From positions 4,030,001 through 4,094,000 of the forward strand of contig JABRWF010000007.1 of NCBI GenBank assembly GCA_018343915.1: 64,000 bases of DNA, written 5' to 3'. Source of the DNA: Agroathelia rolfsii. Taxonomy: Eukaryota; Basidiomycota; Agaricomycetes; Amylocorticiales; Amylocorticiaceae. The notes under the pieces were generated by a model that was not told the DNA's origin, did no database searches, and was given only the letters and a program-made list of their open reading frames with translations. The first letter of the stretch is position 1. Every line of letters begins with the position of its first letter. The position numbers and the translations under genes are program-made. Shown one piece after another: positions 2,705 to 44,745 of the stretch.

Positions 2705-2706
2705 AA

Positions 2707-8315: not shown

Positions 8316-8671
8316 TGTCAGGCCCTTGACTAGTTGTGGTCTAGTGGAGAGGGAGAATCGTACAGGGAGGGAGATTGGGAAGTTTAGTCAATTTCCAAAC
8401 TGAGTAACTAAGTACATGCAAGGCATTGTATTTATACTAAAACTGTTCTAGGAGCATACTCAGAGGAAAGGGGTGAGGCCAATTGGCCGAAAGGTACAGA
8501 ATGGAGTGAATCATACAAAAGAAAACTAAAGGACAAAAAGGATACATGTAGAAATAAGGGACAAGGGCAGGAGGCCATATGGGAAAAAGGGACAGTGGAA
8601 TGGAAGGCAAAATGTAGAATGAAGTGATTGGAACAGTGGGAAATGGCGGAGGTTCCAACAGGAGGGAGCGG

Positions 8672-9730
8672 TAATAAAAGGTTATATATATATTATAGAC
8701 AAGTGTAGTGTATCTTTATGTACACTACTGTAGACCTTGTTTAAGCAATTACTTACTTGTGTAGAAAAGTAAAGGCTTGAGATTTCTTTATAGATTTAAG
8801 GCAAATAACTATAAAGAGTAGAAGCGATTAGTCTACCTTGTAATGCAATTAAATATTAGCCAGTACCACTTGTGGTTACTTACTTGATGTAGTTTCTTGA
8901 CTACTAGGCTTGATTTGTCTTGCAAAGACTTTGGTAAGTCCTAATGAGTTGATTAGTTAGCTTGATAGCTAATATAGGGACTTATCCCTGTTCACTCACG
9001 ATTTCTGATGTGAATTCAACTTGTATTTTCATGCTATCTACTACAGGGTTTATATACATTTCCAAATATTCAATTTTACATGATTTTCTGTATGTAAATA
9101 TAGGATTGCTGTGCTCCTATCTATTATTATCCTTATCTCTGACTTAGAATGACTCACTCCTGTGCATCTAGGTTATTCTTAGTCGCTTTCATATGTGGAT
9201 AATCTATCTATAGTGTTATCTATGACTCAGAGTGACTCACTCCTGTGTAGATAAGCTGTATCTATATAGATCAGCTATCTTTGGCTTTATCAGTGAGTCA
9301 GGGTGACTCACTCCTGTGTAGATATGCTAAACATAGCTTTTATCAGCTGTGCATCGATTATCTATAGCATCAACTGCTGTACAGGCTATATTTACTTTAT
9401 CACATGCTATATAGATAAGTTTATACTTAGATATCAGTGAGATAAGAGATATTAGGACTGATTAGGATTGATATGAATCAGATAAGGTTTTATCTTATCA
9501 CTGTAGTAGATAATCAATATCTTTTACATAGTAAAATTGCATATATTCATTTAAATATTCATTTATTTGACTATATGCTATATAGACTAAAACTTATTTA
9601 TCTCTGTAAGTAAAATCCGGATAAATTCAAATAAATTTGTGTAAGTTCATAAGATGGTCTTTTATTTATTTAAGTATTCATTGTACATATATATGAAGTT
9701 GTTTCATTGTAATAAATACAACTTTCAACA
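8672..9730 (-). repeat. Co2 3' LTR (1,059 bp)
   Basis: Minus-strand ends TGTTGAAAG...CCTTTTATTA. Same length as the 5' LTR at 17739-18797 and about 99% identical by eye. A purine tract (GAGTGGGAG) on the minus strand lies directly inside it. Confidence 0.93.
9150..9310. promoter_or_regulatory. cluster of five Gcn4/AP-1-like sites in the Co2 LTR
   Basis: TGASTCA occurs at 9150-9156, 9223-9229, 9233-9239, 9294-9300 and 9304-9310, within a threefold degenerate repeat (TGACTCACTCCTGTGTAGATA). In the transcription direction it lies about 95-250 bp upstream of a TATA box (TATATAAA, plus 9049-9056). The 5' LTR keeps four of the five (18217, 18290, 18300, 18361); the fifth is TGACTTA at 18371. Confidence 0.7.
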
Positions 9731-9758
9731 CTCCCACTCAATGAATGCTTAATAGTTT

Positions 9759-12700
9759 TTATTGACTTTGATTATACCATCTAAAATCATTTATAATACC
9801 TACTAGCTTTGAGAAATTGCTATGTTTAATTTCACCTAGTGGCTTAGTGAAAATGTCAGCTAGTTGGTTATTTGTATTTATATATTCAAGTTTTATGTTT
9901 TTCATTTCAACCTGATTTCTTATAAAGTAGTGTCTTACTTCAATATGTTTAGTACCTCGTCCACCATGTTTAGGATTATTTGAAAGACTTATAGCTCCTT
10001 GGTTGTCTGCATATATTTTTGTAGGTTCACTTATGTCTTCTCCAATATCTTTGAGTAATTTTCTTAACCATAAAATTTGTTTGGCTGTTTCTGTTAGTGC
10101 CATATATTCTGCTTCAACACTGGATAATGCAATTGTATGCTGTCTTCTGGTTGACCATGATGTAGCTCCTTTGCACATCATTGTGATATATCCAGTAGTT
10201 GATTTGCGATCATCTAAATCCATAGCCCAATCTGCATCTGAGTATGCTTCAAGTTTCTTGGATGTTTGGCCTTGATACAGAATGGCTTTGTTTGTGGTTT
10301 TAGATAAATATGAAAAGATATGATTTACTGCTGTAAAGTGTTCTTTACTTGGGCATTCACTATATTTAGTGCATTTGTTTACAGCAAATGTTATATCTGG
10401 TCTTGTTATTATAGTTAAAAATGTTAATGACCCAATCATGCTTTTATAATATGTTTTATTTGATTCAGTGGTTGGGTTCTCACTTTTTCTGAGTTGTATG
10501 CTTGCTGACATAGGTGTTTGGAATCTGTCACGCGCCGCACATCCTGATCAATATCCGGGACATTTTCCGATGCACACCACAATATGCGTTCATTCGGGTT
10601 GCACGGCGGTGACTCACAACGCACTGTCTCGCCAGAACCTCCGTGTCGCACGCGCCTGTCGGAACCAAACCTGATTGCTGATCAACGAACTCCGGACGCA
10701 CTGCGTAGTTTCACTGATGCCCAGCATCGATCAACAACTGCAGCGCTTCTCACCATGCGTGTTGATCCTTCCCTTTCTTATCATTTCCCTTCTTGACTCA
10801 TCATTGATTTTATCCATTTTCTTTATTGTTCTCACTCCATCGTACATGTTCTACTGAGTAGTAGTATATATACACGAATACTTTGTACCTACATACTCTA
10901 GTTCGGAAATTCAAATGTCTAGTGACTAAGAACACTTCCCCTCTCATCCCATTTAGTTGGAAGCAGTGACACAAGGGCCAAAGCCATTCATTTGGCCGAA
11001 GTCCAGACTAAAGCAACTCGCCCTGTCATCCGCTAGCGCCTTCGCATCCGACCCCCTTCCTTCCTCTCTTGACCATCATCTCGTTGAGTCACATCGATTG
11101 ACTTGGCCGTTTGCCGAAGCACCCGACCCTCTCGATTCGTTGCCCATACTTAGCCTCACGCATCCGCATCACGCCATTGCCTCCGCGAGTGCCCTTTGCC
11201 GCAATCGTCTATTGCCGCATTGCCCGTCCGTATTCTCGTTGCGCCAAACCTTCCGTCGGGGTCTCCGGCGAGTTTGGTTCATGACAGAATCCTTTGGAGT
11301 TTTCTTTCTGGAATTTCTTTAGAATACCCTTACAATATTCCTCTTGATCTATTGAAAGTAATTTCTTTGATCTATTTCTTTTTATGTTTACTCCTAAAAA
11401 TGATTTGGCTGGTCCAAGGTCTTTCATTTCATATTTCTTTTGTAGTTGGGTTTTTATTTCATTTATTTTCCTTTTGTTTTTACCCATAAGTAATAAATCA
11501 TCAACATATAGTATTAAAATGATTTTGTCATTTGTGTCTCCCACTTGTTGATGTTTTATATATATTCCTGCATCTGCATGTATTCTTTTAAATCCCATGC
11601 TTTTCAGTGTTTCATGTATTTCAAAGTTCCATTGGCGTCCTGCTTGTTTTAGGCCATATAGAGATCTTCTTAGTCTACATACTAGGTCTTCTTTTCCTTT
11701 TATTGCAAAACCTGTGGGTTGTTCCATGTATATTTCATGGTCTAATTTGCCATATAAGTATGCAGTTGTAACATCCATTTGGTCAATTTCCCAATTTTTA
11801 TGGGCTGCTTCAGCTAATAAAACTCTGAATGCTTCATATCTTGCAACAGGTGACCATGTATCATCATAAGTATCATCTGTTTGTAGATCTCCTCTTGCTA
11901 CATATCTTGCTTTGTATCTTCCATCTGATTTGATGGTTAATACCCATTTTCCTTTAATGACTGATTTGTTTTTAGGTCTAGGTACTAAATTATATACTTG
12001 TCTTGTCTTTAGAGAATTCATTTCTTTTTTCATTGCTTCCTCCCACTTATCATGGTCTGGGGAGTTCATTGTCTGTTTATAAGTTCTGGGAATATTTTGT
12101 ACATCAACTGCTAATGTCAATAAATGATTTATCTTAGGTTCAGAAATATTATCTATAAGTGTATTCTGATTTAGAGTACTTGAGTCCATCCATTCAGAGG
12201 TATTATACCTTGGATTGGGTTTTCTTTCACGTCTTGGTCTATCAATATTATATGGTTTTAGTTGAGCAGTTGATATAGATTCAGGACTTTCTTCTGTAGA
12301 CTTTTCATTTTTATTTTTCCAAAGATTAGATATACTACTACCAATTTCTTGTGGTGAGTTTTGTTCAGTATCTTTTAAATCTTCTATATAGTCAATGTCT
12401 TCTTCATCTTCAAATGATATGGGATTTGTGATATCTCCCATTTTAATATATTCTTGACTTTCTGTATCTGATTCTGGAATGTCTTTGGTTCTGGGATATA
12501 CAATTTCTTTAGATTGAGAATCTGATTGTGAGATATCTGCCTCTAATTCATCCAGATGTAAGAAGTTGCCTTTTTTCCTTGAGTGAAATGGAAAAATATA
12601 TTCATCAAATCTTACATCATAACTATCCCATGTTTTGCCTGTTTGGATATCATATAATTTCCATCCTTTTGACCCTTCTGGGTATCCTATAAACACTAAT

Positions 12701-14934
12701 CTTCTAGCTTTGTTTGCTAATTTATTTTTTCTAGCCTCTTTAGGTATTGTCATCCATGCTTGACATCCAAATACACGTAGCCTAGAAATATTTGGTTTCT
12801 TTTCATACCATAATTCATATGGAGTCTTGTAATTTTGGACTTTTGATGGTGTTCTATTATAAATATATACAGCTGTTTCCATAGCTGCTCTCCAGAATCC
12901 ATTTCTCATTCCAGCATGTTTTCTCATAGCTTTAGCTTTTTCATGTATTGTTCTTTGGAATCTTTCTGCTCTGCCATTTTGTTGGTGAGTATATGGAATA
13001 GAGGTTTGTAATTCTATACCATTTTCTTCTAGGTATTTTGTGAATTCTTTTCCAATATATTCTCCTCCTCTATCTGATCTTATTTGCTTTATCTTTTTAC
13101 CAGTTTGTCTTTCTGACCAATTTACATATTTTTTAAAATAGTCTAATGCTTGACTTTTGTGTGTAATATAGTACATAGTTCCATAAGATGTAGCATCATC
13201 TATAAAGGATATTACATACTTTATACTACTTTTTATAGCATTTTCTGGTAAGGAATATATATCTGAATGTACAAGATCATTTGGGTATTTGCTTCTTTCT
13301 AGAGATAGTTGGTGTGATGCTCTTATAGATTTTCCTAAAGCACATCCTTCACAAATATCTCTAGGTTTTTGTGATATCTTCTCTGGTGCACCTTTTGTAT
13401 TATGCTTGAGTTTGTGTATTACTTCCTCACTAGCATGTGCTAATCTCTCATGTAATAGTTCATATGGGAATTCCTCTTTACTATTTAGGGTTTTTCCTAT
13501 AGAGTGTCTAGAGATTTTTCCACGCAACTCAAAGTTATTGTTTGCATTTATATGTGCACTTAGTATTTTCTTTTTATCAATTATTAATTCCATGGTTTTT
13601 CCATTTCTTCTTATAATCCAGTGCCCTTTTGTCTTTTGTGATATTTGTTGTGGGCTTATCAATCTTTCTTGTGTGTCTGGAATATATCTAACATCTGTAA
13701 TACTTATGTATTGTTCTTTTCCACTTGAGTTTGTGTGATGCATTTTTACTGTACCAGTTCCTAAAATCTGTAATTTTGAACCATCTGATAATACAGTATT
13801 TTTAATCTTTCCAGGGGGGAATGCTTTGTATTCATGAAAGTCATTCATATCAAATGTAGAATGATGACTTGTACCAGAATCTATTAAATAATGAAATTCA
13901 TCATCTAATAATTTCTCTGTTTGATACAATAACTTTGTTATATCCTCTTCATCATTTTCTATTTCTGATGAATATACTTCATTATCATTCTCATCATCAT
14001 CATTATGACTTCCTTGATTTGTTTTTGACTTTCCTTTGAATGATTTTGGTTTATTCCCAGGCCTATTAGGTGGTTTCCAATTATCTTTATGTTCTTCTGT
14101 AGTATGTTTTACATACTTTTTGCATTTCTTACAGTAATTCTTTCTTTCCTGTTGATTATTGGTCCTTGATGGTCCATTAAAATTCTTCTTTTTGCCTTTG
14201 AATCTTCTTGATTTTGATAGGTTGGTTTTACCTTCATTTTGGCCAGTGTGCATATATTGACGTATTATTTGTTCCTGTACTAATTCTGCATGAATTTTCT
14301 CAACAGTTGCATCTTTTATTCCACCTACAGACCTAAGGATAGAGCTCCAACTTAGTCTGTATGTATCTGGTAGAATTCTAGCTAATTGTGTAATAAAGTC
14401 TTTTTCTGTAATTGATATATCACTAGCATTTGCTCGTGATTGGAGATTTTGCATTTCAGAGATCTGTGTACCCATATCTTTATTTTTATATATTCTATAG
14501 GAATAGAATTGGTTATAGTATTTAGATCCTTCTTGTATGCGTTGCTCTTTATATACATTATATATTGTTTTCCACATTTCAGCTGCTGTTGGTTTTTCTA
14601 TGAGAATATTTGCCCATGTTTCATTTACACATTCTCCTAATAAACCTTTTGCTCGATCATCTGCTTGATCCCATGCATGTGCTAAGATCATTTTCTTGTC
14701 AGGTGTATATGATATTCCTGCAACAGATGCTAATTCTGGTGTTAAGTCTTCAGCTGCTTGTGCAGTAGGTCTTAGAATAGGTGTTGGTTCTTCTTTAGGC
14801 AATGCTTTTGAATACATTCCCCAAATTCTAACTTTTTTGGCTAGGTAATAGAATTTGAGTGAGAATATTGTCCAATTTGATCCATTGAATAATGGGAATC
14901 CTGTAGGGATTTCTTTTGTGAATGTGTCTCCCAT
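9759..14934 (-). pseudogene. Co2 gag-pol polyprotein, interrupted by solo LTR-D
   Basis: Copia order on the minus strand from ATG 14934: gag (UBN2-like), a CKKC...H...H knuckle variant, protease LIDSGTSHHS, integrase HHCC finger (H-x3-H, CEGC), integrase core with D (SDIYS), D (RSDRGGEY) and E (NGRAERF), RT with YVDDLLL, then RNase H (DADWAMD, SSVEAEYMAL, DNQGAI). The frame is open for 1,216 codons up to 11287, where a 761-bp LTR is inserted with a GAATC duplication. It resumes in frame at 10520 (QTPMSAS...) and ends at 9759. All catalytic motifs I can check are intact, so the protein was probably functional before that insertion. ORF2 ends one base before the ATG. Confidence 0.93.
10526..11286 (-). 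repeat. solo LTR-D in Co2 RT/RNase H junction
   Basis: 761 bp, TGTCATGAACC...CGCGTGACA on the minus strand, flanked by perfect GAATC (10521-10525, 11287-11291). General architecture (AATAAAG, TATA-like tract, TGTCA/TGACA ends) is like LTR-A but the sequence differs. It is GC-rich inside an AT-rich host element. Confidence 0.88.
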
Positions 14935-14935
14935 T

Positions 14936-15715
14936 TTAGATATTTTCTGGGTTTGTAAGATTATCTTCTATAGGGAATAGATATGTTTCAAAAAGTTCAT
15001 ATATCCTCCCTACTTGGTAATTTATATAATCTTTATATGTTTTCTTCCAGAAAGTCTCAATATATTCTAATTGGTAGTCTGTTTTTATTTCTAACCAATC
15101 TTCTGTGAGATAACTGAGAATAAATTCTTTTTTCTTTGAACTTATAAGCTTTCCTATTTGTTCGTTTATCTCTCCTTGAGAAAAATATGGAAGGCTCCAA
15201 TTACTTAGTGTTGGTGTTAGTTGTAGGATGTATTGGTTATGAATTTTCTCTCTACTATATAGTTCTTTCTGAGAGTATTCTGCTGAAGATAATATTTCTT
15301 TTTCCCAAATACCACTTCCTTTTGCTAGGAATATTTTCTGGATGAAATATTCTTTTATTCTCTCTTGAGAATCTATTGACAAACTCTCCCACTTAAATTT
15401 TGAGTGGTCTAAAATATATTCTTCTGCCTCTTTATATAAGGTAGGGTCATGATGGTATAGTGTATATTCACTATAGAATTCTTCAAGTTTTATTTTCAGG
15501 GAAATATGACCTTGTCTCCTTAGAGATTTATGGTTTTTCTTGTCTATTAGCTTCTCCCTTGTTTTCTTATTTCTCCTTTCTCTTTTAGATTTAGAACTAT
15601 TGACAATATTTGTGTCTTCAAGTTCTTCTTCAGGTAAGAAATCAAAGGGGTTTTGTGTCTGAAAATCCTCTACTAACTCTGTTAATGTTTTCTGTACTTC
15701 TTCGTTAGAATCCAC
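14936..15715 (-). CDS. Co2 ORF2, unknown Lys/Glu-rich protein
   Basis: About 259 residues, hydrophilic and helical-looking, with an acidic N-terminus (LPEEELEDTN), a strongly basic stretch (KSKRERRNKKTREKLIDKK) that could bind nucleic acid, and a Glu/Lys/Tyr-rich remainder. There is no membrane segment and no family I recognise. There is no ATG at its start (the frame opens at GTG 15715 after a possible 3' splice site ACACAG), so it may be joined by splicing to an upstream exon. It ends TAA at 14938-14936, and the gag-pol ATG follows after a single base (TAAAATG) in another frame. Reinitiation or alternative splicing could supply gag-pol. Confidence 0.6.
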   Translation of the reverse strand: MDSNEEVQKTLTELVEDFQTQNPFDFLPEEELEDTNIVNSSKSKRERRNKKTREKLIDKKNHKSLRRQGHISLKIKLEEFYSEYTLYHHDPTLYKEAEEYILDHSKFKWESLSIDSQERIKEYFIQKIFLAKGSGIWEKEILSSAEYSQKELYSREKIHNQYILQLTPTLSNWSLPYFSQGEINEQIGKLISSKKKEFILSYLTEDWLEIKTDYQLEYIETFWKKTYKDYINYQVGRIYELFETYLFPIEDNLTNPENI

Positions 15716-16060
15716 CTTGTCTGTGTTTTTTATACCTTAGAATTATTATTACAATCCTGAAGATAATATATATAATCCTTAAGATATTCAAAACAGCAAT
15801 TTTTAAAGGTAATATTATTCCCCCTTTTTTCTTTACCTTGTGAAAATTTCTTAAGTGATGTTTTAGACTTGTATATGCAAATAATTTATCCAAGCACAAA
15901 TACAAATATTATTTTTGAGGTTTTTACAAGTATTTGTATACAAGTAAGCACTTTCTCAATACAAACTTCCAATCCACAAGATTTTTCAGAAAATAGGAGA
16001 AAATATAGCAAAAGATATAAGAGAAAATTTTAGAAATTTATACAAGCTACAAGTTATTGT
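15716..16060 (-). other. Co2 spacer between ORF1 and ORF2
   Basis: AT-rich, with several possible 3' splice sites (TTCAG, TCTAAG, ACACAG) and a CAAGGTAAAG donor-like sequence near 15840. No convincing frame. Confidence 0.4.
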
Positions 16061-16476
16061 TTAGTAAGGGTTAAATCTAATAGCCCTTTTCTGCTTGGTA
16101 TCTTTTCCTCCTCTGTGTGATACACCTGTCTGATTTTCTAGGATTTTTCTAGACTGCCTTTCAAACCTATCTTTAAAATCCTTGTTGAATTTCTTCTGCT
16201 CCTCCTTAAAGTCTAGAAGGCTAATCCTAAGGTTGTGAATCTACCCAGGATAAAAGTGGGTCAGCCTTGTTAATTCTTTGAGTTGTTGGTCTACAAGCTC
16301 AAAGCGTTCGTTCTGGCTTCTAGTGATTTCAAGAGTCCAGCCAATGGATGACTGTAAGCCAACAATTTCTTGACATAGATCTTCTACTGTTGTGCGGAAC
16401 CACTTGTTCTGCTTAATAACTTCTGCAGAATGGTTAACAAGTGCTTGTACTTGTTGGAGTAGAATGCGATTGTGGT

Positions 16477-16526
16477 CTGAATTTATATAAGCTTTTTATG
16501 TATAGCTTAATAAAATATTTGAGTAC
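16477..16526 (-). other. Co2 ORF1 intron 2
   Basis: 50 nt, donor GTACTC, acceptor AAATTCAG; contains the TAA that would otherwise end exon 2. Phase 1 on both sides. Confidence 0.6.
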
Positions 16527-17390
16527 CTTCTGGCTCTGGTGTGTATTTCTTGAAAGCCCACTCGTTGAGTGTGCAATTGCCTAGGTATGCAGAAGATGGG
16601 ACAGGGGATGCAATGGGGGGTGTCACTTGAATGGGACTAGCTGATTTGCTGGGTGGTGGTGTATTTTGTTTGTTTGGCAAAAACCAGGATGAGGTATCGT
16701 TACCCCAAGAGTGTATATCGTTGATGTTGAGTTCTGGGAGTTTCTGGAGTTCCTTATAAAGCCTTATAAACGTTTCTGAACGAATAAATTCAAGTAAACT
16801 CACTTGAACTTCTGTTACAGTCTTATTAAGGATATTGCTGACTTTCTTGTTGATAGGGGATCCTGAGTGAGGTGATAAAATAGGTGATGATGGCTCAGGG
16901 TCTTTATCCTTGTTCAGTGATTCAGCAAAGACTTGGGATAGACCGTATATAGATGACTCGGCTTCAGAGGGTGTTCTGGATTTGAATAGTGGACCAGATG
17001 GGTTGTATCTTTCTTTTTCTCTATACAGGTCTTCAATAGACCAGCAGGCATATGTATCTGGGATTTCAAAGAATTCACAGAATCTGTCAGAGAAATTTGA
17101 TATCTCCCTTGTAATCCAATGCTTGATGTGATCAAGATCCTCTGTGCCAACAAGTGCTTTTTCAAGGTATTTTAGAGTGGCGATGTAGCTGTTGAGGTTG
17201 TCTTCTCTGTAGATCTTGTCAAAGAATTCGTGGAAGTCCTCGTATATAGGCCAGGCCTCTGTTGGATCGATCTCTTGCTCTTCTTGAGGTGGTGTTGGTG
17301 CCCTAGGCCACTGGTGTTCCTTAAATATCTGTTTAATATGCTGTTCAAGCCTCTTATGTTCCCTTGTTGGGAGATCCTCTTCATGCTCCG

Positions 17391-17445
17391 CTTAATTAGG
17401 GTTTTAAGCTTCCTATTTAATTAATATAAGTCTAAATAGACTTAC
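17391..17445 (-). other. Co2 ORF1 intron 1
   Basis: 55 nt, consensus donor GTAAGT, branch-like CTAAT and acceptor TTAAG. It has in-frame stops and phase 1 on both sides. Confidence 0.65.
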
Positions 17446-17724
17446 AATCTTTTTCCTGCTTAATATATTCGTAATCTGTGTAGTATTGGATATTGGAATC
17501 GTCAAAGTCTTTATCACTATCACTATCGCTGAATATATCTGCCTCAGTGATGGTTGGGAGATGAGTGAGGACTGTTGGAGCTGTAGCAGGGTATTGGAGC
17601 TGGGGTTCCTCCTCTTGGTTGTAGGAGCTGAAGGTGTAGGCTGGGGTGAAGAGCTCGTTGGTGAAGGATGACACTAAATAGAATAATTGTTAGCCTATTT
17701 CAAAATATTTAAATGCCTTTTAGT

Positions 17725-17738
17725 CAGGGCTCATAACC
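17725..17738 (-). promoter_or_regulatory. Co2 primer binding site
   Basis: GGTTATGAGCCCTG on the minus strand directly abuts the 5' LTR. It is complementary to the anticodon arm of fungal initiator-Met tRNA, the half-tRNA primer known for Copia elements. Confidence 0.85.
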
Positions 17739-18797
17739 TAATAAAAGGTTATATATATATTATAGACAAGTGTAGTATATCTTTATGTACACTACTGTAG
17801 ACCTTGTTTAAGCAATTACTTACTTGTGTAGAAAAGTAAAGGCTTGAGATTTCTTTATAGATTTAAGGCAAATAACTATAAAGAGTGGAAGCGATTAGTC
17901 TACCTTGTAATGCAATCAAATATTAGCCAGTACCACTTGTGGCTACTTACTTGATGTAGTTTCTTGACTACTAGGCTTGATTTGTCTTACAAAGACTTTG
18001 GTAAGTCCTAATGAGTTGATTAGTTAGCTTGATAGCTAATGTAGGGACTTATCCCTGTTCACTCACGATTTCTGATGTGAATTCAACTTGTATTTTCATG
18101 CTATCTACTACAGGGTTTATATACATTTCCAAATATTCAATTTTACATGATTTTCTGTATGTAAATATAGGATTGCTGTGCTCCTATCTATTATTATCCT
18201 TATCTCTGACTTAGAATGACTCACTCCTGTGCATCTAGGTTATTCTTAGTCGCTTTCATGTGTGGATAATCTATCTATAGTGTTATCTATGACTCAGAGT
18301 GACTCACTCCTGTGTAGATAAGCTGTATCTATATAGATCAGCTATCTTTGGCTTTATCAGTGAGTCAGGGTGACTTACTCCTGTGTAGATATGCTAAACA
18401 TAGCTTTTATCAGCTGTGCATCGATTATCTATAGCATCAACTGCTATACAGGCTATATTTACTTTATCACATGCTATATAGATAAGTTTATACTTAGATA
18501 TCAGTGAGATAAGAGATATTAGGACTGATTAGGATTGATATGAATCAGATAAGGTTTTATCTTATCACTGTAGTAGATAATCAATATCTTTTACATAGTA
18601 AAATTGCATATATTCATTTAAATATTCATTTATTTGACTATATGCTATATAGACTAAAACTTATTTATCTCTGTAAGTAAAATCCAGATAAATTCAAATA
18701 AATTTGTGTAAGTTCATAAGATGGTCTTTTATTTATTTAAGTATTCATTGTACATATATATGAAGTTGTTTCATTGTAATAAATACAACTTTCAACA
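17739..18797 (-). repeat. Co2 5' LTR (1,059 bp)
   Basis: Transcribed from the minus strand. It holds the Gcn4/AP-1-like repeat (18217-18377), then TATATAAA (18123-18116) about 95 bp further on. Ends match the 3' LTR exactly. Confidence 0.93.
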
Positions 18798-19099
18798 AGC
18801 GGAGCACAGGATTCCAGAGTTCCGCCCAAGCTAGCGTGGGAATTGGAGTGCGGAGCTAGCATGGTGCAGAGATTGGCCCTGGAGTTGGTGTTCTGGGAGT
18901 GGCGTATGATAGTGTCCCCCCCTTAGGTCCTGAGCCCATGAAGGACAGAGAAAAGGGTTGGTGCATTGGAGCTTGAAAACCTCAGAGGTCCTCTGATGCA
19001 AGAGATGTTGCCATAGGATTTCCGCGACCCTGGATCAATCCTCTGCTTCACCTAACCACCACTAAGTAACAATCCCCCCCCTCACACTTCTGCTTAACA

Positions 19100-21069
19100 A
19101 TGTCATCTGAGAGTCTCGCCGCCTAAATCGCCATACTCCAGGTCCAGCTGGCCAAAACCAAATGCCATGAAAAAGAGGAGCGCAAGCAGGCGGAGGAGAA
19201 AGCTTGGCATGAGCGAGAGGAAGCTGAGAGGAGGGTAGCCGAGGAGGAGCGCAAGCGGGAGGAGGCGGAGCGTGCATGGGAAGAGGAGACGCGGCGCATG
19301 CAGTGGGGGGCACGGGTGTCCAAGAAACACACCTGGGGCAGTTCCGGTGACGAGTCGGAGGTTATGGAGATGCCACCACCCTTGGTACTCAGCAAAAAGC
19401 CGCAGCGCGCCTAGATGTCCCACATCGAGGTAGAGAGTCCCAGTCAGAAGAGGCGGAAAGTGGTTGGGTCGACAGAGCCTGCGGACAAGGAGGTTGAGGA
19501 AATTCTGGTGAGTTAAGTGGAACGCTCAGTAGCCCACGCTGATATGCTTTGTAGGGACGTGTTTGCAAGGCGTGTCATTGGCATAGTACCACCTGTGAGT
19601 GGTACACCACTTCTTGGCATCGTTTGTGCAAAGCGTGCCGGGTTGCACATAGAGTCTGTGACGGAGGTGGGCCCGAAGAGACAGTAGAGTCTATTCAGGG
19701 GTCGAAAAAACCGGCCGCCCATGCCAAGATTGAACAGGAGGCAGCGATGCGTGGGCAGTGTCACGACCCGCCAACGCACCCGGCCGCCAAACGTCCCGAT
19801 TGTGCACATCGACATACACAAACACCTACGACATAGTCACCGGCAATGCCCTCCCTTCTGAGTTGCCGCGCACCCCGTGCATCGGATGCGTTTCCGATGT
19901 GTCCGCCGACGTTTCCCCGAAGCCATGTGCAAGGCCGCCTTTGCGCTTCCTTTCCATCATTGATGCGCTTCTGTCCATCAAAGCATCCCACATGCCGACT
20001 GGCCTTCTCGATGTCAATCCCCAAGTCGCCATGTGTCCCCACCAGCGGATCCTTCCTATCTGGGAAGATTGCGCTTGGTTCTCCACCATGATCGCGCTCT
20101 GATCGACGATCAGACCACCGATGGTTCCGAAGGAACGCACCCCCGCCTTTGTGCACAGCGTGGCACGACTACCAGAGTGCGCGGCGCGCGCTATTCTCTA
20201 TTGTTCTTATTGTTCTTCCTGCCTTTCTTTATTTATCATTTTCTCGACTACTGTACTTTGTATATATGTACTGTACCTGATGTAGTAGTTACAGTAGTCG
20301 GAAAATTAAGTGTGTATCGCCCTAACCCAGCCTACACCCGCTGCATAGCCAGCGGTCAACCTGTGGACTCAAGCATCCTCGAGTATCTTGTCTAGCTCTT
20401 CTCTTCTTGCTTGATCTCTCCGCCCTATGCTTGATCTCGCTGGAATACCCGCTCAACTTGCCGTACGCCGTGACTGCTTGCCACGTCACCCGTATCGCCG
20501 CAAGCTCCGAGATATCGAAGAGGCGACTCCACAAACCCACAGGGCTGCCATCCGGCAGTGAGTCGCCCAGCAGTTAGCGCCCCAGGGGCATCGCCGCACC
20601 GCCCGAGCTAGCTGCAAAGGCAGCTCTTGACAGGCGGGCACTGGCAGTGGAAGAGTTGTTGGCGGAGAGCAACACTCTGGCAGGGAGCAGCCATATGGTA
20701 CAGTCGCGGGAGTTGGCAGTGGCAAGTGTGGTCGAAGGGTTGACAAGGGTCTTGGAGCGGATGCAGCAGCAGCAGGTGAATGTAATGCAAGAGTGGGTGA
20801 AGCTGACGTCGGCAGGGTTGGAGCGACTGGCAACAGCACAGATGCGCCTGATTGCCAAGACCATTGCCAGCAGGCGAGTTCAGGAGAACTCGTCACAACT
20901 GCTGGTGGATGTACTGGAAAGCCTGGCGCGACTGAGGGAGAATGGGCCGGATGTCAACAATGACAGGGATAAGGACGCGGAGCCGGAGGATGCGGAGCCA
21001 GAGGATGCGGAGCCGGAGAACCCGGAGGACGGTGGGAATGGAGAGAAGGAAGGAGAGGTGGAAGAGTGA
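19100..21069 (+). pseudogene. Zn2Cys6-type zinc-cluster gene, decayed, antisense to Gy3
   Basis: From ATG 19100 the plus strand codes an N-terminal Glu/Lys/Arg coiled coil, a Ser/Lys linker, then CKACHWHSTTC and CKACRVAHRVC (19564-19659). That is C-x2-C-x6-C-x10-C-x2-C-x6-C, the spacing of fungal binuclear zinc clusters. A second coiled coil and an acidic tail with EPEDAEPEDAEPE repeats end at 21069. Decay: TAA at 19124, TAG near 19411, TAA near 19513, one frame change before the cluster, and a solo LTR-A after residue ARG-GLY-GLN. The halves rejoin in frame (AMRG-RALAVEE). It is tail-to-tail with Gy3 pol (about 200 bp apart net) and starts about 30 bp from the presumed Gy3 LTR. It may be a retrotransposon passenger or a host gene copy. 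Confidence 0.68.
19759..20632 (-). repeat. solo LTR-A, copy 4
   Basis: 874 bp inside the zinc-cluster gene, flanked by GGCAG (19754-19758) and GGCGG (20633-20637), a duplication with one transition. Confidence 0.85.
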
Positions 21070-21146
21070 GGAAGAGGGGGAAAGACTTGTATATACATTT
21101 TTTGTATGTATTTCTTAAAGTAAAATGTCTGTGGCCAAAGTATGAG

Positions 21147-22992
21147 TGTCAAGGCTTGCACTCTTGACATAACCAACTGACGTAAACCCTCTCAAAGGTG
21201 CAAGGGATGGGCTGTAAGACCCCTTTTTACTACGTGCTACTGGGTTGGCTTATTAAGCAGACGCGCACGTGCTCCCGTTGCTACTCCTTTGTAATAGTAC
21301 TAGTCAAACGCCTACTTTGTTAGGGTTGCAATCGGTACTCTAGCGTGAGGCTTCCCGGGTGCTTCCTTCACGTCAAATAGGTATTCCTACTAGTTTCTTA
21401 CTCGGAATAGGCGGCTTAGCCCTCCGTGCTACTACGTACGTCTGAGAGGACTTGTTTCTGCCTCTACCTGAATGAACAGGATTTTGTAATCACGCGCAAT
21501 GCCTCCTTTGTATTGAGGACTTATTGTTCTTACGCCCTCTGGTACTAGGGCTCGTGTATTCTACTTAGATGCCGTTGAGGCCTTATACTAAATAGGCTAG
21601 AGAGAGAGAGGGGTGTGGGCTAAGAGAACAGGCCTGAAGGCAAGAATTATATTAGTGAATCTTATGTAGGGGATACAAGATGGGGGGTGCCCTTACCTGA
21701 AGGCGAGAAGGTTGAAGCTAAGGTTTCAGGTAAGGGCTACAAGCTTGTATTTATACACAAAATGAAGGGCCCGTGTGCAGCCTTGATGGTCTGTGTGCAG
21801 CCAGGGTTCGTAAGCAGGAACATGTAAAAATGCAGGGGCAGTGCTTTATGCCTAAGTCCGATGAGCAGCCGATCGGAATGATGAGTCTAGTACTCCTTAG
21901 TAATCGCATGTCATGAGTTGGAAAATATGGACAGAATTTTTACAAATTATTTAATTTTTATTGGAACTATCTTTACGAATTTTCGTCTCCTTTTATCTTT
22001 TTTATTACCCTTAGGGCGTGGACTGTAGGCAGTGAACGGTCAGGTGATTGGCCCTCATGTGACTAAGCCGCACGCTACAGGAGTAATCGTGAGTTGTGCG
22101 TTTCCTGTTCACCATTCCGCACAACTCCGGAGTACAAACCTCCGACCACTGACCAATTCCTAACGGATACTGGTTCCGTTACACACCTCTGAGCTTCCGC
22201 TCCCGAGCTCCTGCGGAGCTCCGCTCCTGAGCGCGGAACCTCCGGAAGTGTTGTATCTCCACACGGCTGCCCGTCGGAGTTAGGGAAAAGGTCTTCCCCT
22301 GCATAATCTACTTCCTCTATTCTTTGCCTCCGCATCGGAACTAGCGCGGAGCTTCCGCAAGTAGTATAAGTAGTGCATGTAACTTGTCCTGAAGGGCCAG
22401 CTTTGACCTCTTTGCCTTCAGGCAAGTATTAGACATTTGTATTCCTCTTATAGTATTACTCAATAAAACTTCGCCTTCAGGGTTCATTCCGCAGGGCCTA
22501 GCCCGTCTCAGCTATAGAATTCAATCACATCGGAGGTGGTGGAAATCCCCTCAAATAGTTTTTAAAGTCTATCGGAATAAGAGTAGGAGCCTCGCACATA
22601 GATACGGAAGAGTACCCGGTGTTGCCCTTCAATAAATCAGGGAACATATCTGTGGGAAAACCATATTTGTGTAGTACTTAGATTTTAGTGTTTAAGAGTA
22701 TATCCTTTGCACAGTCAAGGAGTGTACCCTTGACATCGCACAGTGATTGGAACGTCCCTGGTTCCTGAGTCTAGACCTTTTGATGAAAAGGAATGATCTA
22801 GACTCCGCCTTCCTAATATACTCTTGTCACGAGCACTCCTGTCACGTGGGGCTAACACAGCTAGTCACACGCGCGTCAAGATGTTGCCTGCAAGGTATTT
22901 CATCCGTATCTCAGTCAATAAAAATCGTAAAAATACAATAAAAATATGTACATGTTCGTAAGAAAAAGGCGAAAAATGTCCAACTCATAACA
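21147..22992 (-). repeat. Gy2 3' LTR (LTR-E), split by solo LTR-B
   Basis: Minus-strand ends TGTTATGAGTTGG...GCCTTGACA. The pol stop lies inside its first bases. A solo LTR-B is inserted at TCGCA. Confidence 0.9.
21909..22735 (+). repeat. solo LTR-B in Gy2 3' LTR
   Basis: 827 bp, flanked by perfect TCGCA (21904-21908, 22736-22740). Same family as the Gy1 LTR. Confidence 0.92.
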
Positions 22993-25900
22993 TTACCCCC
23001 TTCTCAAGGGAGTTACTCCGGAACTTCCCTAGTTCCTATCCTGCGGTTTCCTTCATAATTGTTTCCGTGAAATTTTCTATGGGCCTAAAAGGTAACTCCC
23101 CAAAGACTGCAGCATTCAAGCGTTTAGGTGTATTGGGGTGTTTCTTGTGGAAGTCTTGTATTCTGGCCTTGGCATGAGTTAGATTGTCTGCTGGTTCCTA
23201 ATTGTCTTCTCTAGATGCGTCCTTCCAGCTAACCAGGTACTCAAGCCGCTTAGGTCTTCCCGAGATTCTGGAATCCTTGATCTTGTCAACCTCCCATTCT
23301 TCTTCTCCTTCGACTTCTATAGGTTCTGGCGGGGGTTGGTCTCGGTCAGAAGGTTTATGCCCGGATAGAAGGGAAACATGAAAGACGTCATGGATTGACC
23401 ATGTGCGGGGAATCTTGAGCCAATAAGCAAGTGGACCAATCCTTTCCAAGATTTCGTAGGGTCCTGCAAACTTGGCAGCAAGCTTCCTGGTTAGTTGGGA
23501 GGTCTTGAGATTCTCGGTAGATAACCACACCTTGTCCCCTTTCTTCCATTGAGGGGACTCTTGAATGTGCTTATCAAATGCTTCCTTCATCTTTTCAGCA
23601 GCTAGGTTAAGCGCGGCATGGGCATCTGCTTGTGCATCGGAAATCACATGTAGCCAATCCTCTACGGCTGGGGTTTCAAAGATCCCGGTCAAGGAGAAGT
23701 CCATTCGTGGATCGAAGCCATAATTCATCCTGAAGGGTGACATCTTGGTGGCAGAGTGTTAGCGATTATTCAAGGCAAACTCCGCCAAAGGGAGTAAACA
23801 AGCCCAGTCATCTTGTCAATGTGATACAAAGAACCTCAGATATGCTTTGAGTTCCTGGTTAACACGTTCGGATTGGCCATCAGTCTGGGGGTGATAAGCT
23901 GTGGACATGGCCATGGTAATTCTGAGTTGTTTGTGAACCTCCCTCATGACCTTACTTGCAAACTGGGGTCCCCTATCGGAGGTTATCCTGGAAGGTAGTC
24001 CATGAAGCTTAAATACATGTGACCATAGAAGTTCCGCTGTCCCGATAGCATTGATTTTCTCTGTAGTAGGGATGATATGAGTCATTTTTGAGAATTGGTC
24101 AACTACTACCAGAATGCTATTGTATCCTTGGGAATTAGGGAGTTTAACTATCATGTCCATTGTAATATGATCCCAGGGTCTGGTAGGCGTAGGAAGCGGC
24201 TCAAGAGGACCAAATGCAGGTAAACAAGACGACTTGTTCTGGATGCAGGTTTGACAGGTTTCAACGTATTTGTTAACAGCTTTGGTCATGCCAGGCCACC
24301 AATAGTTGCATGATACCAGTTCAAGGGTCTTGTGTTGTCCTGGGTAGCCACTAAGTAAGCTATTGTGGTACATGGAGATGATCTGGGTACGGATTTCCTT
24401 GTCTGCTGGTACATAGACCTTTTCTTGCCGCAAAATGACGCCATTTTCCTGGTTCCATTCCTCTAAACCCTTCTGAAGCTTAACAGGGCCCAAATCCTTG
24501 ACCAGCCAAAGCGCCTCCGCAACCTCTGCTTTGGGGGAAGCATTCCGGATTTTCCTTAGCAGTTCGGACTCTCCCTCCATCAGTACATGACCTTGTCTAG
24601 CAGCGTTGATTCGGAACAACTTGGGGTCGAGCAGTACTACATCCTGGTTGTCCTCAGCATCCAAAACCTGAAGGTTAGGTCGACGGGATAGTGCATTGGC
24701 CTTGCCGTTCTCGGCGCCCTTCTGGAAATGGATGCGGAAGTTGAAATCAGCTAGGAAGAGGGACTAACAAGCTTGACAATGGGTAAGGTTGCGGGCGGTC
24801 GTCCAGTATTTGAGGTTCTTGTGGTCCGTCCAGATCTCAAAGGGGTAGGGTAAACCCTGGAGTAGATGACGCCAGTGGTCTAGAGCACGGATGACTCCTA
24901 ACATTTCCTTGTCCCAGATATCGTAATTCCTCTTGGCATCATTCATAGACTGAGACAGGAATGCTATTGGGTGCCAAGCACCAGATTCATCCTTCTGACT
25001 AAGGACTGCACCGGTTGCATAGGAGGAAGCGTCTGTTTTGACTCGTGTTGATGCTTTCTGATTATAGGATCTCAAGACAGGGGCTGTGCTGAAGGCCTTC
25101 TTAAGGTTTTCGAAGCTTTCTTGTTCTTCTTGACCCCAGGTCCATTCAACCTTGCCGGTGAGGTGATCCAAGGGTTTGCAGATCTTCCCGAAGTCACGAA
25201 TGAAGCGTCGATAGTAGTTAGCTAAACCTCGAAATTTATGGACCTCCTTGACGTTCTTAGGGGTTGGCCAGTCCAGAATAGGCTTAACCTTTTCTGGATC
25301 CATACGCACTTGTCGATGGGAGACAATAAAGCCAAGAATATTGACCTCAGGTTTTTCTACTTCAAATTTATCCAGGTTGCCATAGAGGTTGTGCTCCCTC
25401 AAGATGGATAGGACTTCCCTGGTAATTTCTCATAGCTTCTCCTTGGATTCGGCTCCAATGATGACGTCGTCGATGTACACCCTGACAAAACCCAACTGGA
25501 CTAATTGGAGGAGAATATCGTCCATTAACACTTGCATCGATGAGGGGGCATTGCAGAGGCCGAAGGGCATGACCAGGGGTTTGAATAAACTGCATGACGT
25601 GATAAAGGCCGCTTTGCGTTCATCTCCTTCCCTAATTCGAATATTGTTGAACCCAGCTCGTAAGTCAATTTTCGTGAACCAGCGGAATTTGGTCATGTGT
25701 TCGACAATTTCTGAGATCAGGGGAAGGGGATACGCATTTTTGACAGTCTGCTCATTGAGGGCTCGATAATCTTGGACAGGGCGAAGCTTCCCATTTTTCT
25801 TGGGTACAAAGAACATAGGGGCAGCGAATTCACTTTTAGATTTACGAATATACCCCTTTGCCAGGTTATCATCAATCCATTCATTGAGTGCATCAGTTTC

Positions 25901-26569
25901 ATTGCTACTGAGGGGGTATACATGCCCTCGTCTAAGCTTGGTTTCATCAAGCAACTCAATTTTGTAGTCAGATGACTTGTGGCTAGGTAGTCTACTCGCT
26001 TCTTCTTCAGAGAATACATCAGCGAAGTCTTTGTAGCCTGGTGGCATAGTTGCAGCAGCTTGTATGGTTTCCTTTTCAGGCAGGAAGGTGATCTCTACAG
26101 ATTTCCAGTCTATTACCGGGTTTTCAAGGCGCAGCCAATCGATACCAAGAATAACGTCTTCCTGGCCTATATCGACAACGCAGAGTGGCAGGTACTTTCT
26201 TTTGGATCCTATCGTAGTATCGAGGATTGCAACAGATTCAATCTTTCCTATCTGATTTGCGGAGTTATCGATGTTATACAGGGGAATAGGACGAGGTAAA
26301 TTTTTTGTAGGTATTTTATGTTTTTCTACGTATCTGTAATTTACAAAAGAAGATGAGGCACCAGAGTCAATCATAGCAGAAGTAGAAAAGTCTCTAAAAG
26401 GTCCATGGAACATAATTGGAACCTTGAGGTGCTGTCCATTTGCACCTGCAAGGGAAAAATAAGAGGAAGAAGAAATGGAAATATTGTTACAAGAAGAAAG
26501 AGAAGAGAAACGATTCTGAACGTATTGGTCAGACTGAATAGCCCTTTCAGCTGACCTTAAGAAAAACCC
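22985..26569 (-). pseudogene. Gy2 pol: protease-RT-RNase H-integrase-chromodomain
   Basis: Entered by -1 slippage at 26569-26563 and open in that frame through GQHLKVPIMFHG. Protease AMIDSGASSSF, RT with VYIDDVIIG, RNase H (TDASSYATG, KEMLGV, TDHKNL), integrase HHCC finger (HPGQH...CQTC), core D (TMDMIVK), D (TSDRGPQF) and E (GQSERV), then a chromodomain (EWEVDKIKDSRISGRPKRLE and onward). Catalytic residues look intact, but five nonsense codons interrupt the single frame (TGA 25430, TAG 24764, TGA 23816, TAA 23759, TAG 23198). All fit C-to-T or G-to-A. The stop is TGA inside the LTR (22987-22985). No frameshift indel was seen. Confidence 0.9.
26527..26569 (-). promoter_or_regulatory. Gy2 gag-pol -1 frameshift signal
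   Basis: GGGTTTT (26569-26563), 6-nt spacer containing the gag stop TAA, hairpin 26556-26527 with stem GGTCAG-CTGAA paired to TTCAG-T-CTGACC. The -1 frame is open from the heptamer into pol. Confidence 0.8.
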
Positions 26570-28047
26570 ATCTAATCCTTAAGAGTGGTGATGGCGGCCG
26601 CTTGTTCTTCTATGATCTGCATTACATGATCAGGGACCGTATACGCAGGCGGGCTGGTAGAAGCTGGAGGTGGGGCAGTGACGGGGGGGACTATTGGTTG
26701 GACAGAGGCAGATATAGATGCTTGTCCAGCAGGGGCGAATGGATGGGGCTTGTATCTGAGGAGTGGGCAGCGGCACTTTGGATGACCTAGTTGGCCACAA
26801 TGGAAACACTGTGCCTTTGACCAATCCCTAGGCGGGAACGATGGTCTTCCCTGAAATGAGGGTTGACTGGTTGAAGGTGTAGCAACTTGAGCCGCATTAA
26901 TCGTGATGGGGTTTGTAGCCGACCCAGCTACAGGGACCTGAGGTCTCCATGTGTCCTGCCACAACCCTGCAGAACGTAGTCCTTGTTCAGCACGAAGTGC
27001 TGCGTCCATTGCCTTTTGGACCGTTTCCAAATTGGATTAGTCCCATCCTCCCAATACATTACGGATCTTGGGGTTTAGTCCATCAAGGAACCTTACACGC
27101 CAATCCTCTTCTGACAGGTCAGTTTGTTGCGCAGTTGACCAGAAGTCCGTAATGTAGTCTTGGGTGCTGCGCGAACCCTGCTTCAGGTTTTTCAGCTTAT
27201 CTAGAGCTGACCTCTTGTAATCCCATGATCCGTACAGTCCACGGAAAGCCTTATAGAAGTTTTCAAAGATGAAGGGAGGTGATCCCTTAACTTCTTCTTC
27301 GGCCTTAATTTGGTCGGACCATTTTTCTGACCATCTTCGCAGACCTCCTTCCAGCAAAGAGATCAGCAGTCTTCCCTTGTCTCGATCTGAACTGTACAAG
27401 GTGGGGTTTAGTCCCAGGTAGTTTTTGAAATCCAGAATGAAGTCCTTGTATTTTTCGCAATCACCCAAGAACTTAGAGGGCTCCTTGCCTCTTTCCTTTG
27501 TTGAGGCCACTGTGACCACCTGAGGCGCAGGTGCCAGAGCAGGGACAAGAGTCGGTGCCAGATGATTGGCAATTTCTACCAGCTTTCGCTGGGTCTTGGT
27601 CATGTGCCTCATCATTTCAGTGGTCTGATGCTGCATTTCCAGCATCTGACCCATGAACTGTTCAAAGCCTGACATGGTGGGAGAGGGGGGGCGAGTGATG
27701 GCAGGTGTGCGGGTTTGTGGAGTAGGTATCGGCGTGCGGATTCTGGGTGTAACAGCCGGTGTGGGAACGCGAGAATGGGTATGGGAGGCTATGGGTTCAG
27801 CTTCTGGCTCACGATAATCAGAGGGTGATGGATAGACCTCTTCCTCAGGTTCTTCTTTGTCTTCGTCCTCCTCTTCTTCAGATTCTTCAGGTGATGCGGG
27901 TTTAGGAGGGGAGGGAGCTTTTGGAGGCGTAGGTACCTTGGGTGGTTGGGAGAAGGTGGGCTGGGGAGCGGGTGCGGAGACGGATGGGCGGGCAGAGGTT
28001 TTTGCAGTGGGTTGTGCGGGTGCCTTTCCTTTCCTGGATTGGCTCAT
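26557..28047 (-). pseudogene. Gy2 gag
   Basis: ATG at 28047. The Pro/Ser/Glu-rich disordered N-terminus (about 130 residues) is followed by a retrotransposon capsid domain (EKYKDFILDFKNYLGLNPTL and onward) and the CCHC knuckle CFHCGQLGHPKCRC. Two TAG codons replace Gln (27036-27034 and 26574-26572), the second just before the final MGFS-stop. Close to Gy5 and Gy7 gag. Confidence 0.87.
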
Positions 28048-28451
28048 ATACAGTGGAGCGAAGGCTCAACACACAGATTTTTCTTCTTCAGACTTAAGGC
28101 GGTAAGCCAACCACCTTCTGGTAACGTAATAAAATGTAGAGTAACAAATTACTTAAACAACCAAGCAGTTTTACTCCTAAAGAGGAGTCCCTAGAAGCAG
28201 CAGACTAACTCTGCACTAGCGCCTTTGGGTAACGACACGAGCTTTCCCTGGAAGTACAGGTACCGGCAAGTACAAATCTTAACGGGTTGAAATTGAGGTT
28301 TTTAAGCCCAATCAATTGCTTCCGCAAACAGTTCGGGGTTGTTTAGGTAAGAACAATCATAGAAAGAAAAAGAGTTTTCTTGGCTTATGCTACTTTGCAG
28401 ATATCTGGGACTGCACACCTGGAGCTATGGCTCAACAGATGGTTTTAGGTG

Positions 28452-28463
28452 TAGCTTCGACCT
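28452..28463 (-). promoter_or_regulatory. Gy2 self-primer binding site
   Basis: Minus-strand AGGTCGAAGCTA next to the LTR pairs with TAGCTTCGACCT in the same 5' LTR (plus coordinates 29028-29039). Confidence 0.75.
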
Positions 28464-28465
28464 AA

Positions 28466-30359
28466 TGTCAAGGCTTGCACTCTTGACGTAACCAACTGAC
28501 GTAAACCCTCTCAAAGGTGCAAGGGATGGGCTGTAAGACCCCTTTTTACTACGTGCTACTGGGTTGGCTTATTAAGCAGACGCGCACGTGCTCCCGTTGC
28601 TACTCCTTCGTAATAGTACTAGTCAAATGCCTACTTTGTTAGGGTTGCAATCGGTACTCTAGCGTGAGGCTTCCCGGGTGCTTCCTTCACATCAAATAGG
28701 TATTCCTACTAGTTTCTTACTTGGAATAGGCGGCTTAGCCCTCCGTGCTACTACGTACGTCTGAGAGGACTTGTTTCTGCCTCTACCTGAATGAACAGGA
28801 TTTTGTAATCACGCGCAATGCCTCCTTTGTATTGAGGACTTATTGTTCTTACGCCCTCTAGTACTAGGGCTCGTGTATTCTACTTAGATGCCGTTGAGGC
28901 CTTATACTAAATAGGCTAGAGAGAGAGAGGGGTATGGGCTAAGAGAACAGACCTGAAGGCAAGAATTATATTAGTGAATCTTATGTAGGGGATATAAGAT
29001 GGGGGGTGCCCTTACCTAAAGGCGAGAAGGTCGAAGCTAAGGTTTCAGGTAAGGGCTACAAGCTTGTATTTATACACAAAATGAAGGGCCCATGTACAGC
29101 CTTGATGGTCTGTGTGCAGCCGGGGTTCGTAAGCAGGAACATGTAAAAATGCAGGGGCAGTGCTTTGTGTCTAAGTCCGATGAGCAGCCGATCGGAATGA
29201 TGAGTCTAGTACTCCTTAGTAATTGCACAGTGATTGGAACGTCCCTGGTTCCTGAGTCTAGACCTTTTGATGAAAAGGAATGATCTAGACTCCGCCTTCC
29301 TAATATACTCTTGTCACGAGCACTACTGTCACGTGGGGCTAACACAGCCAGTCACACGCGCGTTGTCACGACCCGCCAACGCACCCGGCTGCCGAACGTC
29401 CCGATTGCGCACATTGACACACGCAAACACCTACAACGGAGTTACCGGCGACGCCCTCCCTTCTGAGTCGCCACATACCCCGTACATCGGACGCGTTTCC
29501 GATGTGTCCGCCGACGTTTCCCCGAAGCCATGTGCAAGGCCGCCTTCGCACTTCCTTTCCATCATCGACGCGCTTCTGTCCATAAGAGCGTCCCACATGC
29601 CGACTGGCCTTCTTGATGTCAATCCCCAAGTCGCCATGTGTCCCCACCAGCGGATCCTTCCTATCTGGGAAGATCGCGCTTGGTTCTCCACCATGATTGC
29701 GCTCTGATTGACGATCAGACCGCCGATGGTTCCGAAGGAATGCACCCCCGCCTTCGTGCACAGCGTGGCATGACTACCAGAGCGCGCGGCGCGCACTATT
29801 CTCTATTGTTCTTATTGTTCTTCTTGCCTTTCTTTATTTATCATTTTCTCAACTACTGTACTTCGTATATATGTACTGTACCTGATGTAGTAGTTACAGT
29901 AGTCAGAAAATTAAGTGTGTTTGGCCCTAAACAAGCCCTACACCCGCTGCATAGCCAGCGGTCAACCTGTGGACTCGAGTGTCCTCGAGTATCTCGTTCT
30001 GTTCTCTCCCTCTGGCTTGTCATCTTCCGCTCTACGCCCGATCTCGCCGGACCTCCCGCTCAACCTGCCGTACGTCTGACTGCTCGCCGCGCTACCTGTA
30101 TTGCCGCAGGCCCCGAGATATCGAAGAGGCGTCTCCACGAACCCACAGGGCTGCCATCCGGCAGTGAGCCACTTAGCAACTAGCGCTCCAGGGGCATCGC
30201 TGCACCGCCCGAGCTAGCTGCGAAGGCAGCTCTTGACACGTGTCAAGATGTCGCCTGCAAGGTATTTCGTCCGTATCTCAGTCAATAAAAATCGTAAAAA
30301 TACAATAAAAATATGTACATATTCGTAAGAAAAAGGCGAAAAATGTCCAACTTATAACA
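28466..30359 (-). repeat. Gy2 5' LTR (LTR-E), split by solo LTR-A
   Basis: Net 1,014 bp. Contains CACGTGAC near its start, a TATAAATA box and the CCTGAA...TTCAGG-type R hairpin. Confidence 0.9.
29364..30238 (-). repeat. solo LTR-A, copy 5
   Basis: 875 bp in the Gy2 5' LTR, flanked by CGCGT (29359-29363) and CGTGT (30239-30243), a duplication with one transition. Confidence 0.85.
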
Positions 30360-30364
30360 ATGAG

Positions 30365-30489
30365 TGAGAATAAAAGCAAACAACAAACATGGAGGTAAAG
30401 GAAAATATAATGGAGGGCTAGGAAGAAACGGGAAAGTAAGAATGGTAAGGAATGATAGAGTAGATAAGTGAAAAATTAGTGAAACAAAA
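30365..30489. other. spacer between Gy2 and the end of Gy3 pol
   Basis: A-rich, no gene. Before Gy2 inserted it was continuous with 21070-21146, the 3' flank of the zinc-cluster gene. Confidence 0.5.
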
Positions 30490-44689: not shown

Positions 44690-44745
44690 GGGGTGCGACT
44701 AGACAAGTGGAGTTCAGAAATACTATCAAATACATACAGAGGCAG

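Follow-up and report, generated by a model that had tools for sequence, protein, structure and literature searches.

An antisense gene for a Zn2Cys6-type protein between pol and the 3' long terminal repeat in a clade of chromodomain Ty3/Gypsy elements of Agroathelia rolfsii

A stretch of 64,000 nucleotides of Agroathelia rolfsii (contig JABRWF010000007.1, positions 4,030,001 to 4,094,000; the window) was found to hold an antisense gene carried by a retrotransposon. The window was a nest of long terminal repeat (LTR) elements, the pieces of which were matched one by one to separate layers; the layer holding the gene was a decayed copy of a minus-strand chromodomain Ty3/Gypsy element, named X. 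There is hardly any doubt that a clade of chromodomain Ty3/Gypsy elements carries, between pol and the 3' LTR, a conserved accessory gene that is antisense and has a single intron of spliceosomal type. The best explanation overall combined this antisense gene with a role of its product as a regulator of the LTR, and was given a probability of about 0.6.

A search of the whole genome with the 3' end of X pol gave 24 matches (22 of 22 candidates scored; counts are lower bounds), which became 19 loci after exclusion of a 177-bp fragment without the pol 3' end and merging of pieces of the same copy (C4:2957-2960, C7:750.9/751.5 and C6:2855/2859 kb). The loci spanned subfamilies X, X2, X3, X4 and Y, the integrase of Y being 67-70% identical to that of X2. 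The original prediction had proposed a genome-wide check for an antisense gene between pol and 3' LTR in other copies; the gene or its remnants lay there, antisense between pol and the LTR side, at 18 of the 19 loci keeping the pol 3' end. The gene was broken at several of the 18: only exon 2 was found at C8 and C6:211429, an internal deletion at C5, splitting by insertions in the window and at C4:2960 kb, and remnants at four Y loci. The refuting case named beforehand, intact copies of the same kind without the gene, was not found within the lineage; the four gene-less Gypsy elements of the window belonged to a separate integrase clade. A Y gene at C1:4561901-4562950 appeared to span a nested Gypsy to its pol at C1:4571024, and the two appear to be one locus, judging from the two halves of the query match and from the nested LTR seen at each break. 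With pieces of Y as DNA queries, 13 and 18 matches were listed and added further loci, most of them not read, and the Y2 genes (L079, L080) were each followed by an 875-bp LTR hiding whether pol adjoins. At C1:760212-764661 (L019, L028), inverted X LTRs flanked a stretch like window 41522-44743, followed at C1:764686 by a match to the 5' part of a Y-type gene, as in a rearranged or chimaeric element.

At C6:3220462-3228117 an X2 copy had LTRs identical at 603 of 603 bases and a target duplication, GTATG, at either end, so the gene moved with a recent insertion. Its gag was open (430 codons), its pol had one in-frame stop, and its Pfam domains were gag, RVP_2 protease, RNase H, integrase zinc-binding, SH3_Tf2-1 and Chromo. 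The internal sequence beside its 5' LTR (L077 near 2400) lacked, by eye, the usual TGG start of a tRNA primer site, and self-priming is possible. An unrelated gene beside which Gypsy elements happened to insert would suit a window that is a nest of insertions, but the identical order and orientation at 18 of 19 loci, with one copy within identical LTRs and a target duplication, left this next to no probability; it was rejected on the census and the X2 copy.

In the window, X and the layers that interrupt it were arranged as follows.

8159-8671, minus strand: first piece of the X 3' LTR, split by a 10-kb element at 8672-18797
18798-18911, minus strand: second piece of the X 3' LTR, ending in GATA, then GTGT and a C-tract
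18912-19101, plus strand: leader from LTR to ATG (190 bp), with polypurine tract and conserved block
19102-19507, plus strand: exon 1, with coiled coil (by eye) and basic KRRK motif
19508-19554, plus strand: predicted intron of 47 bp, GTGAGT...TAG, at the same position in X2, X3 and Y
19555-19758, plus strand: first piece of exon 2, with a six-cysteine cluster at 19564-19659
19759-20632, no strand given: nested 874-bp LTR of a high-copy family, breaking exon 2 and not gene sequence
20633-21069, plus strand: second piece of exon 2, with C-terminal helix, acidic tail and stop codon (21067-21069)
21070-21143, plus strand: 3' end of the gene region, tail to tail with pol, about 74 bp also kept in the gene-less X copy at C1:426 kb
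21145-30361, minus strand: separate gene-less Gypsy nested in X, with LTR pieces at 21147-21908 and 28466-29227 and itself with nested LTRs
30365-33319, minus strand: 3' part of X pol, from RNase H to the chromodomain end, with a nested LTR at 31727-32555
41514-44723, minus strand: part of X with gag, protease and reverse transcriptase, PF00078 being at 41751-42422

The X 5' LTR began at about 44724 and ran beyond the window (C7:4098630-4099252; pieces 94.3% and 93.1% identical). The first piece of the 3' LTR was 94.3% identical to this other LTR of the same copy (C7:4098630 on) and resembled other X LTRs; the boundary of the second piece, at 18911, was set from the X2 copy whose two LTRs are identical. 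An undisturbed order of LTR, gene and pol was seen at C4:31488-34280. Domains in Gypsy order, LTRs and a short target duplication placed the element among Ty3/Gypsy chromoviruses (X2 copy; reverse transcriptase from X; Ty3 integrase match). With both pol (from about 30365) and the LTR (8159-8671 plus 18798-18911) confirmed, the gene was indeed located between Gypsy pol and the 3' LTR, and the anatomy of the original prediction was supported by the sequence. As a correction, the Gypsy adjoining the stop codon (21145-30361) proved to be a separate, gene-less element nested in the gene-bearing one. The predicted spacing of about 200 bp from stop to stop held (about 180 bp in the X2 copy, L042), but that of about 30 bp from LTR to ATG did not, the distance being 190 bp from the LTR end at 18911. 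The purine tract thought to precede the LTR was probably the C-tract at about 19074-19081, which is not LTR-adjacent; the adjacent polypurine tract, as shown by the X2 copy with identical LTRs, was 18916-18922 (read on the minus strand). Beside it, a leader block of about 35 bp (18912-18949; L033 1508-1545; AGTGTCCCCCCCTTAGGTCCTGAGCCC..GAAGGAC) was near-identical in X, X2, X3 and X4, and persisted although LTR ends and leaders diverged. Stretches of Y considered for the same block were rejected as nested LTRs of another Gypsy.

The expected plus-strand coding remnant with coiled coil, six-cysteine motif and acidic repeat tail was recovered at 19102-21069. Exon 1 of the window was decayed, with in-frame stops and a length not a multiple of 3, and was 76% identical to the intact C4 copy over amino acid residues 1-136; the second piece of exon 2 was 73% identical. 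The C4 copy had an intact frame (exon 1 of 136 codons, a phase 0 intron of 47 bp, GTAAGT...TAG, and exon 2 of 209 codons), and intact genes had a single short GT-AG intron just before the zinc cluster, with predicted splice sites. X2 genes were intact in two copies (313 residues, 48-bp intron at the same site as X), and the X3 gene had an open frame of 318 residues, one X3 copy having lost the fourth cluster cysteine. The Y gene had a like plan, with a coiled coil, an intron of 52-58 bp at the same site, a 9-residue cluster linker and an acidic tail; the three Y genes read had one or two in-frame stops each. In the product, a charged coiled coil and a basic KRR-type stretch accompany the Zn2Cys6-type cluster, together with a C-terminal helix and an acidic tail. 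Identity among the X, X2 and X3 proteins was otherwise 37-38%, but nine non-cysteine residues inside the cluster were invariant.

The ratio of nonsynonymous to synonymous substitution rates (dN/dS; pairwise, by the Nei-Gojobori method, NG86) ranged from 0.17 to 0.67 over 13 comparisons between subfamilies or X copies. In exon 1 it was 0.17 for X2-X3, 0.33 for X3-X4 and 0.41 for X C4-window; in exon 2 it was 0.31 for X2-X3, 0.22 for X2-X4, 0.36 for X2-X4b, 0.35 for C4-C8 and 0.44 for C4b-C8, and in the second piece of exon 2 it was 0.31 for C4-window and 0.30 for C8-window (Fisher p for X2-X3: 5.7e-11 and 1.5e-8). The gene is probably kept by natural selection, and so useful to the element. Were the antisense RNA itself what matters, through double-stranded RNA or interference, the reading frame would be incidental; the tail-to-tail arrangement with pol suits this, and retroelement antisense RNAs are known (PMC7264820). 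The low ratio of the coding frame contrasted with the four of six frames that do not have third positions in common with it: across six pairs these lay at 0.60-1.43, apart from a single shifted frame in exon 1 of the window, at 0.44; this, the nine invariant cluster residues in X, X2 and X3, and the cysteine pattern retained in Y made the RNA explanation improbable.

A host transcription-factor gene captured recently and carried as a passenger would account for the spliceosomal-type intron and the host-like domain, but the gene was under constraint and occurred in five subfamilies, whose integrases are as little as 67% identical. In a tblastn search with the intact protein, 15 matches at E <= 1e-3 (27 of 27 candidates scored) were all at X-type elements, including one (C1:1026941) at a fragment of X that had no pol match. 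No gene copy away from these elements was found by tblastn at this threshold, in a search of limited sensitivity that also missed known copies (the intact gene at C6:3221 kb, C6:224 kb, C5:3644 kb, C2:5039 kb and the Y genes) and is weak evidence against host copies. Recent capture was judged very improbable, even more so than the RNA explanation.

The Zn2Cys6 motif has the general form C-x2-C-x6-C-x5-12-C-x2-C-x6-8-C. The cluster spacing was C-x2-C-x6-C-x10-C-x2-C-x6-C in X and X2, with a linker of x9 in Y, in agreement with the fungal binuclear zinc cluster that had been recognised in the window. The only match to the general motif in the six frames of the window was 19564-19659, against 1 match altogether in 100 dinucleotide-shuffled versions of the window. 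Cysteine spacing was the same as in Gal4, Ppr1, Put3 and Hap1, and the modelled fold of residues 1-48 was weakly similar; the product differed from fungal Zn2Cys6 factors in scoring below the Pfam cut-off, in a coiled coil N-terminal to the cluster and in being retrotransposon-encoded.

Candidate sites for such a protein occurred in the LTRs. The pentamer CGGAG was picked after reading the sequence and then ranked against all pentamers by dinucleotide-shuffle tests, in which it ranked 2 in the X LTR (after GCGGA) and 1 in the X2 LTR. There were 11 copies in the X LTR and 10 in the X2 LTR (expected about 1.5 and 2.3), with 1 CTCCG each; they were on a single strand and at the LTR ends (5+5 in X, 4+5 in X2), with 1 and 1 in the alignable middle. 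The ends of X and X2 LTRs were no more similar than shuffled sequence, and 1 CGGAG site was in a common alignment column. The X3 LTR (borders approximate) had 9 CGGAG at its two ends together and no CTCCG, three other X LTRs had 8-9 CGGAG, three older mutated X2 LTRs had 1-4, and LTRs of three gene-less Gypsy families had 0-1 CGGAG and 0-2 CTCCG. These clusters are suggestive as candidate binding sites, a lead only.

In the proposed mechanism, the antisense gene would be transcribed from the 3' LTR or the leader, and its transcript spliced and translated; the protein would enter the nucleus, bind CGG-type sites, for which the CGGAG clusters at LTR ends are candidates, and control transcription from the LTR as accessory regulators of retroviruses do. 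This mechanism is tentative, held at somewhat less than even odds. Its more specific form, in which the clade's own Zn2Cys6 regulator would switch the element in a Tat-like way by binding the CGGAG clusters at both ends of the LTR, is a little more doubtful; the switch would perhaps extend to further LTR families rich in CGGAG and to host genes close to insertions. The protein might instead act after transcription, as a factor of the pre-integration complex that binds the DNA or RNA of the element and helps in nuclear import, targeting or chaperoning. The cluster, the basic stretch and the coiled coil would be equally suited to this, and PMC7264820 proposes such roles for plant antisense open reading frames; a separately expressed antisense gene would, however, be an odd route to a particle protein, and CGGAG clusters at LTR ends would be unneeded, though LTR ends are also integrase substrates. 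Such a post-transcriptional role was considered unlikely, at odds not far behind those of the switch.

Several results weighed against the combination of a conserved gene and LTR regulation. One X copy, at C1:426879, kept the LTR and only about 74 bp lying 3' of the gene. The dN/dS was weaker for X2-X4 in exon 1 (0.67) and for X C4-C4b in exon 2 (0.50), and that of X-X2 in exon 2 (0.67) was near saturation and unused as support. The antisense frame sharing third positions gave 0.29-0.39 in 5 of 6 pairs, yet had stops in 6 of 6, and transversions between X2 and X3 had a modest preference for third positions (16 of 29 in exon 2, 6 of 15 in exon 1). Older copies had C>T changes like those of repeat-induced point mutation (RIP), at 22-26% of CpG, 10-13% of CpA and 1-3% of CpT/CpC (L042 compared with L043, L045 and L046); in 8 comparisons of X2 copies differing mainly by RIP-like change, dN/dS was 0.30-1.08 instead of 1, which puts the neutral baseline below 1. 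Coding constraint seems genuine, though not as extreme as the p-values imply. With Pfam Zn_clus (PF00172), scores were 10.9-15.8 bits, below the cut-off of 21, and three Y sequences had no score. A template-free model of residues 1-48 fitted Gal4/Ppr1-type domains weakly (Foldseek E-values 0.76 and worse), and no significant match of the gene product to any zinc-cluster family was obtained in Pfam, PDB-sequence or Foldseek searches. An LTR family in which no copy of the gene is known (31727-32555) was likewise rich in CGGAG/CTCCG, on both strands.

Among the other layers of the window, the nested Gypsy at 21145-30361 had LTR pieces 97.8% identical over 762 bp, and about 416 bp from the end of its integrase match to the LTR; in X2 the pol stop lies 324 bp beyond that point, which left no room for an antisense gene. 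The element of 10.1 kb that splits the X LTR (8672-18797) had direct terminal repeats of 1059 bp, 99.1% identical, and a minus-strand frame of 294 codons at 16507-17391. An LTR family of about 875 bp occurred at 19759-20632, 106-993, 5367-6242, 7222-8096 and 29364-30238, had at least 65 genome matches, own and fragments included (best 40 of 227 candidates scored), and lay within or directly behind several of the antisense genes (also L056, L081 and L082). Copies of the CGGAG/CTCCG-rich LTR family were at 2706-3538, 21905-22739 and 31727-32555; beside the first lay sequence 68% like the start of a gene-less Gypsy of the window, and a 306-codon frame, gag-like by eye.

Relatives of the gene were found outside the genome. 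In protein database searches (best 7987 and 7999 candidates by common words scored), five metagenome protein fragments (P0001, P0003-P0006; E 3e-31 to 3e-26) matched exon 1 or the C-terminal helix, and none included the cluster; the gene family is thus not private to the Agroathelia rolfsii genome. Intron style and mutation pattern suggested a basidiomycete host. A bacterial match (P0002, E 3e-4) was dropped as low complexity. With the Y exon 2 query there was no match among the best candidates scored, and no relative was found among the 49 stretches of viral contigs that fit the pattern.

No report of a zinc-cluster or Zn2Cys6 antisense gene in Gypsy, or of one that also has a conserved antisense intron and clustered LTR sites, was found by title or abstract start in the open-licence literature; the Zn2Cys6-type product of an antisense Gypsy gene is new here, the antisense position itself being already known. 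The fungal case found, the brtn gene of Boty, is reportedly the subject of work by Zhao et al. (2011). Boty-like elements of Botrytis cinerea are also fungal chromodomain Gypsy elements with an additional antisense gene, brtn, likened here by description only (PMC8365987, PMC4227169). Plant aORF-3R genes (Grande gene23, RIRE2, Retand TRP28) are likewise extra antisense genes between pol and the 3' LTR, present in most copies and with a suspected nuclear or DNA-binding role, according to PMC7264820 and PMC11963269. The present gene agreed with them in its place and its orientation relative to gag-pol, and in its presence in most copies (18 of 19 loci, with remnants at several of these); aORF-3R differ in their plant hosts and in TRP28 or SMC domains instead of a zinc cluster, and 'zinc', 'intron' and 'fung' were absent from the main text of PMC11963269. 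The antisense gene of human T-lymphotropic virus (HTLV) and Tat are comparable in the proposed role (element-encoded nuclear regulator, antisense origin), a comparison made in PMC7264820, and no sequence relation is known. What antisense accessory genes do for LTR retrotransposons is still described as unknown in PMC7264820.

Candidate targets in the element's own LTRs, together with the product's likeness to a familiar fungal DNA-binding domain, make the function directly testable in yeast. If the explanation is true, some annotated fungal 'Zn2Cys6 genes' would belong to retrotransposons and inflate transcription-factor counts, and solo LTRs may bring CGGAG-type sites near host genes.
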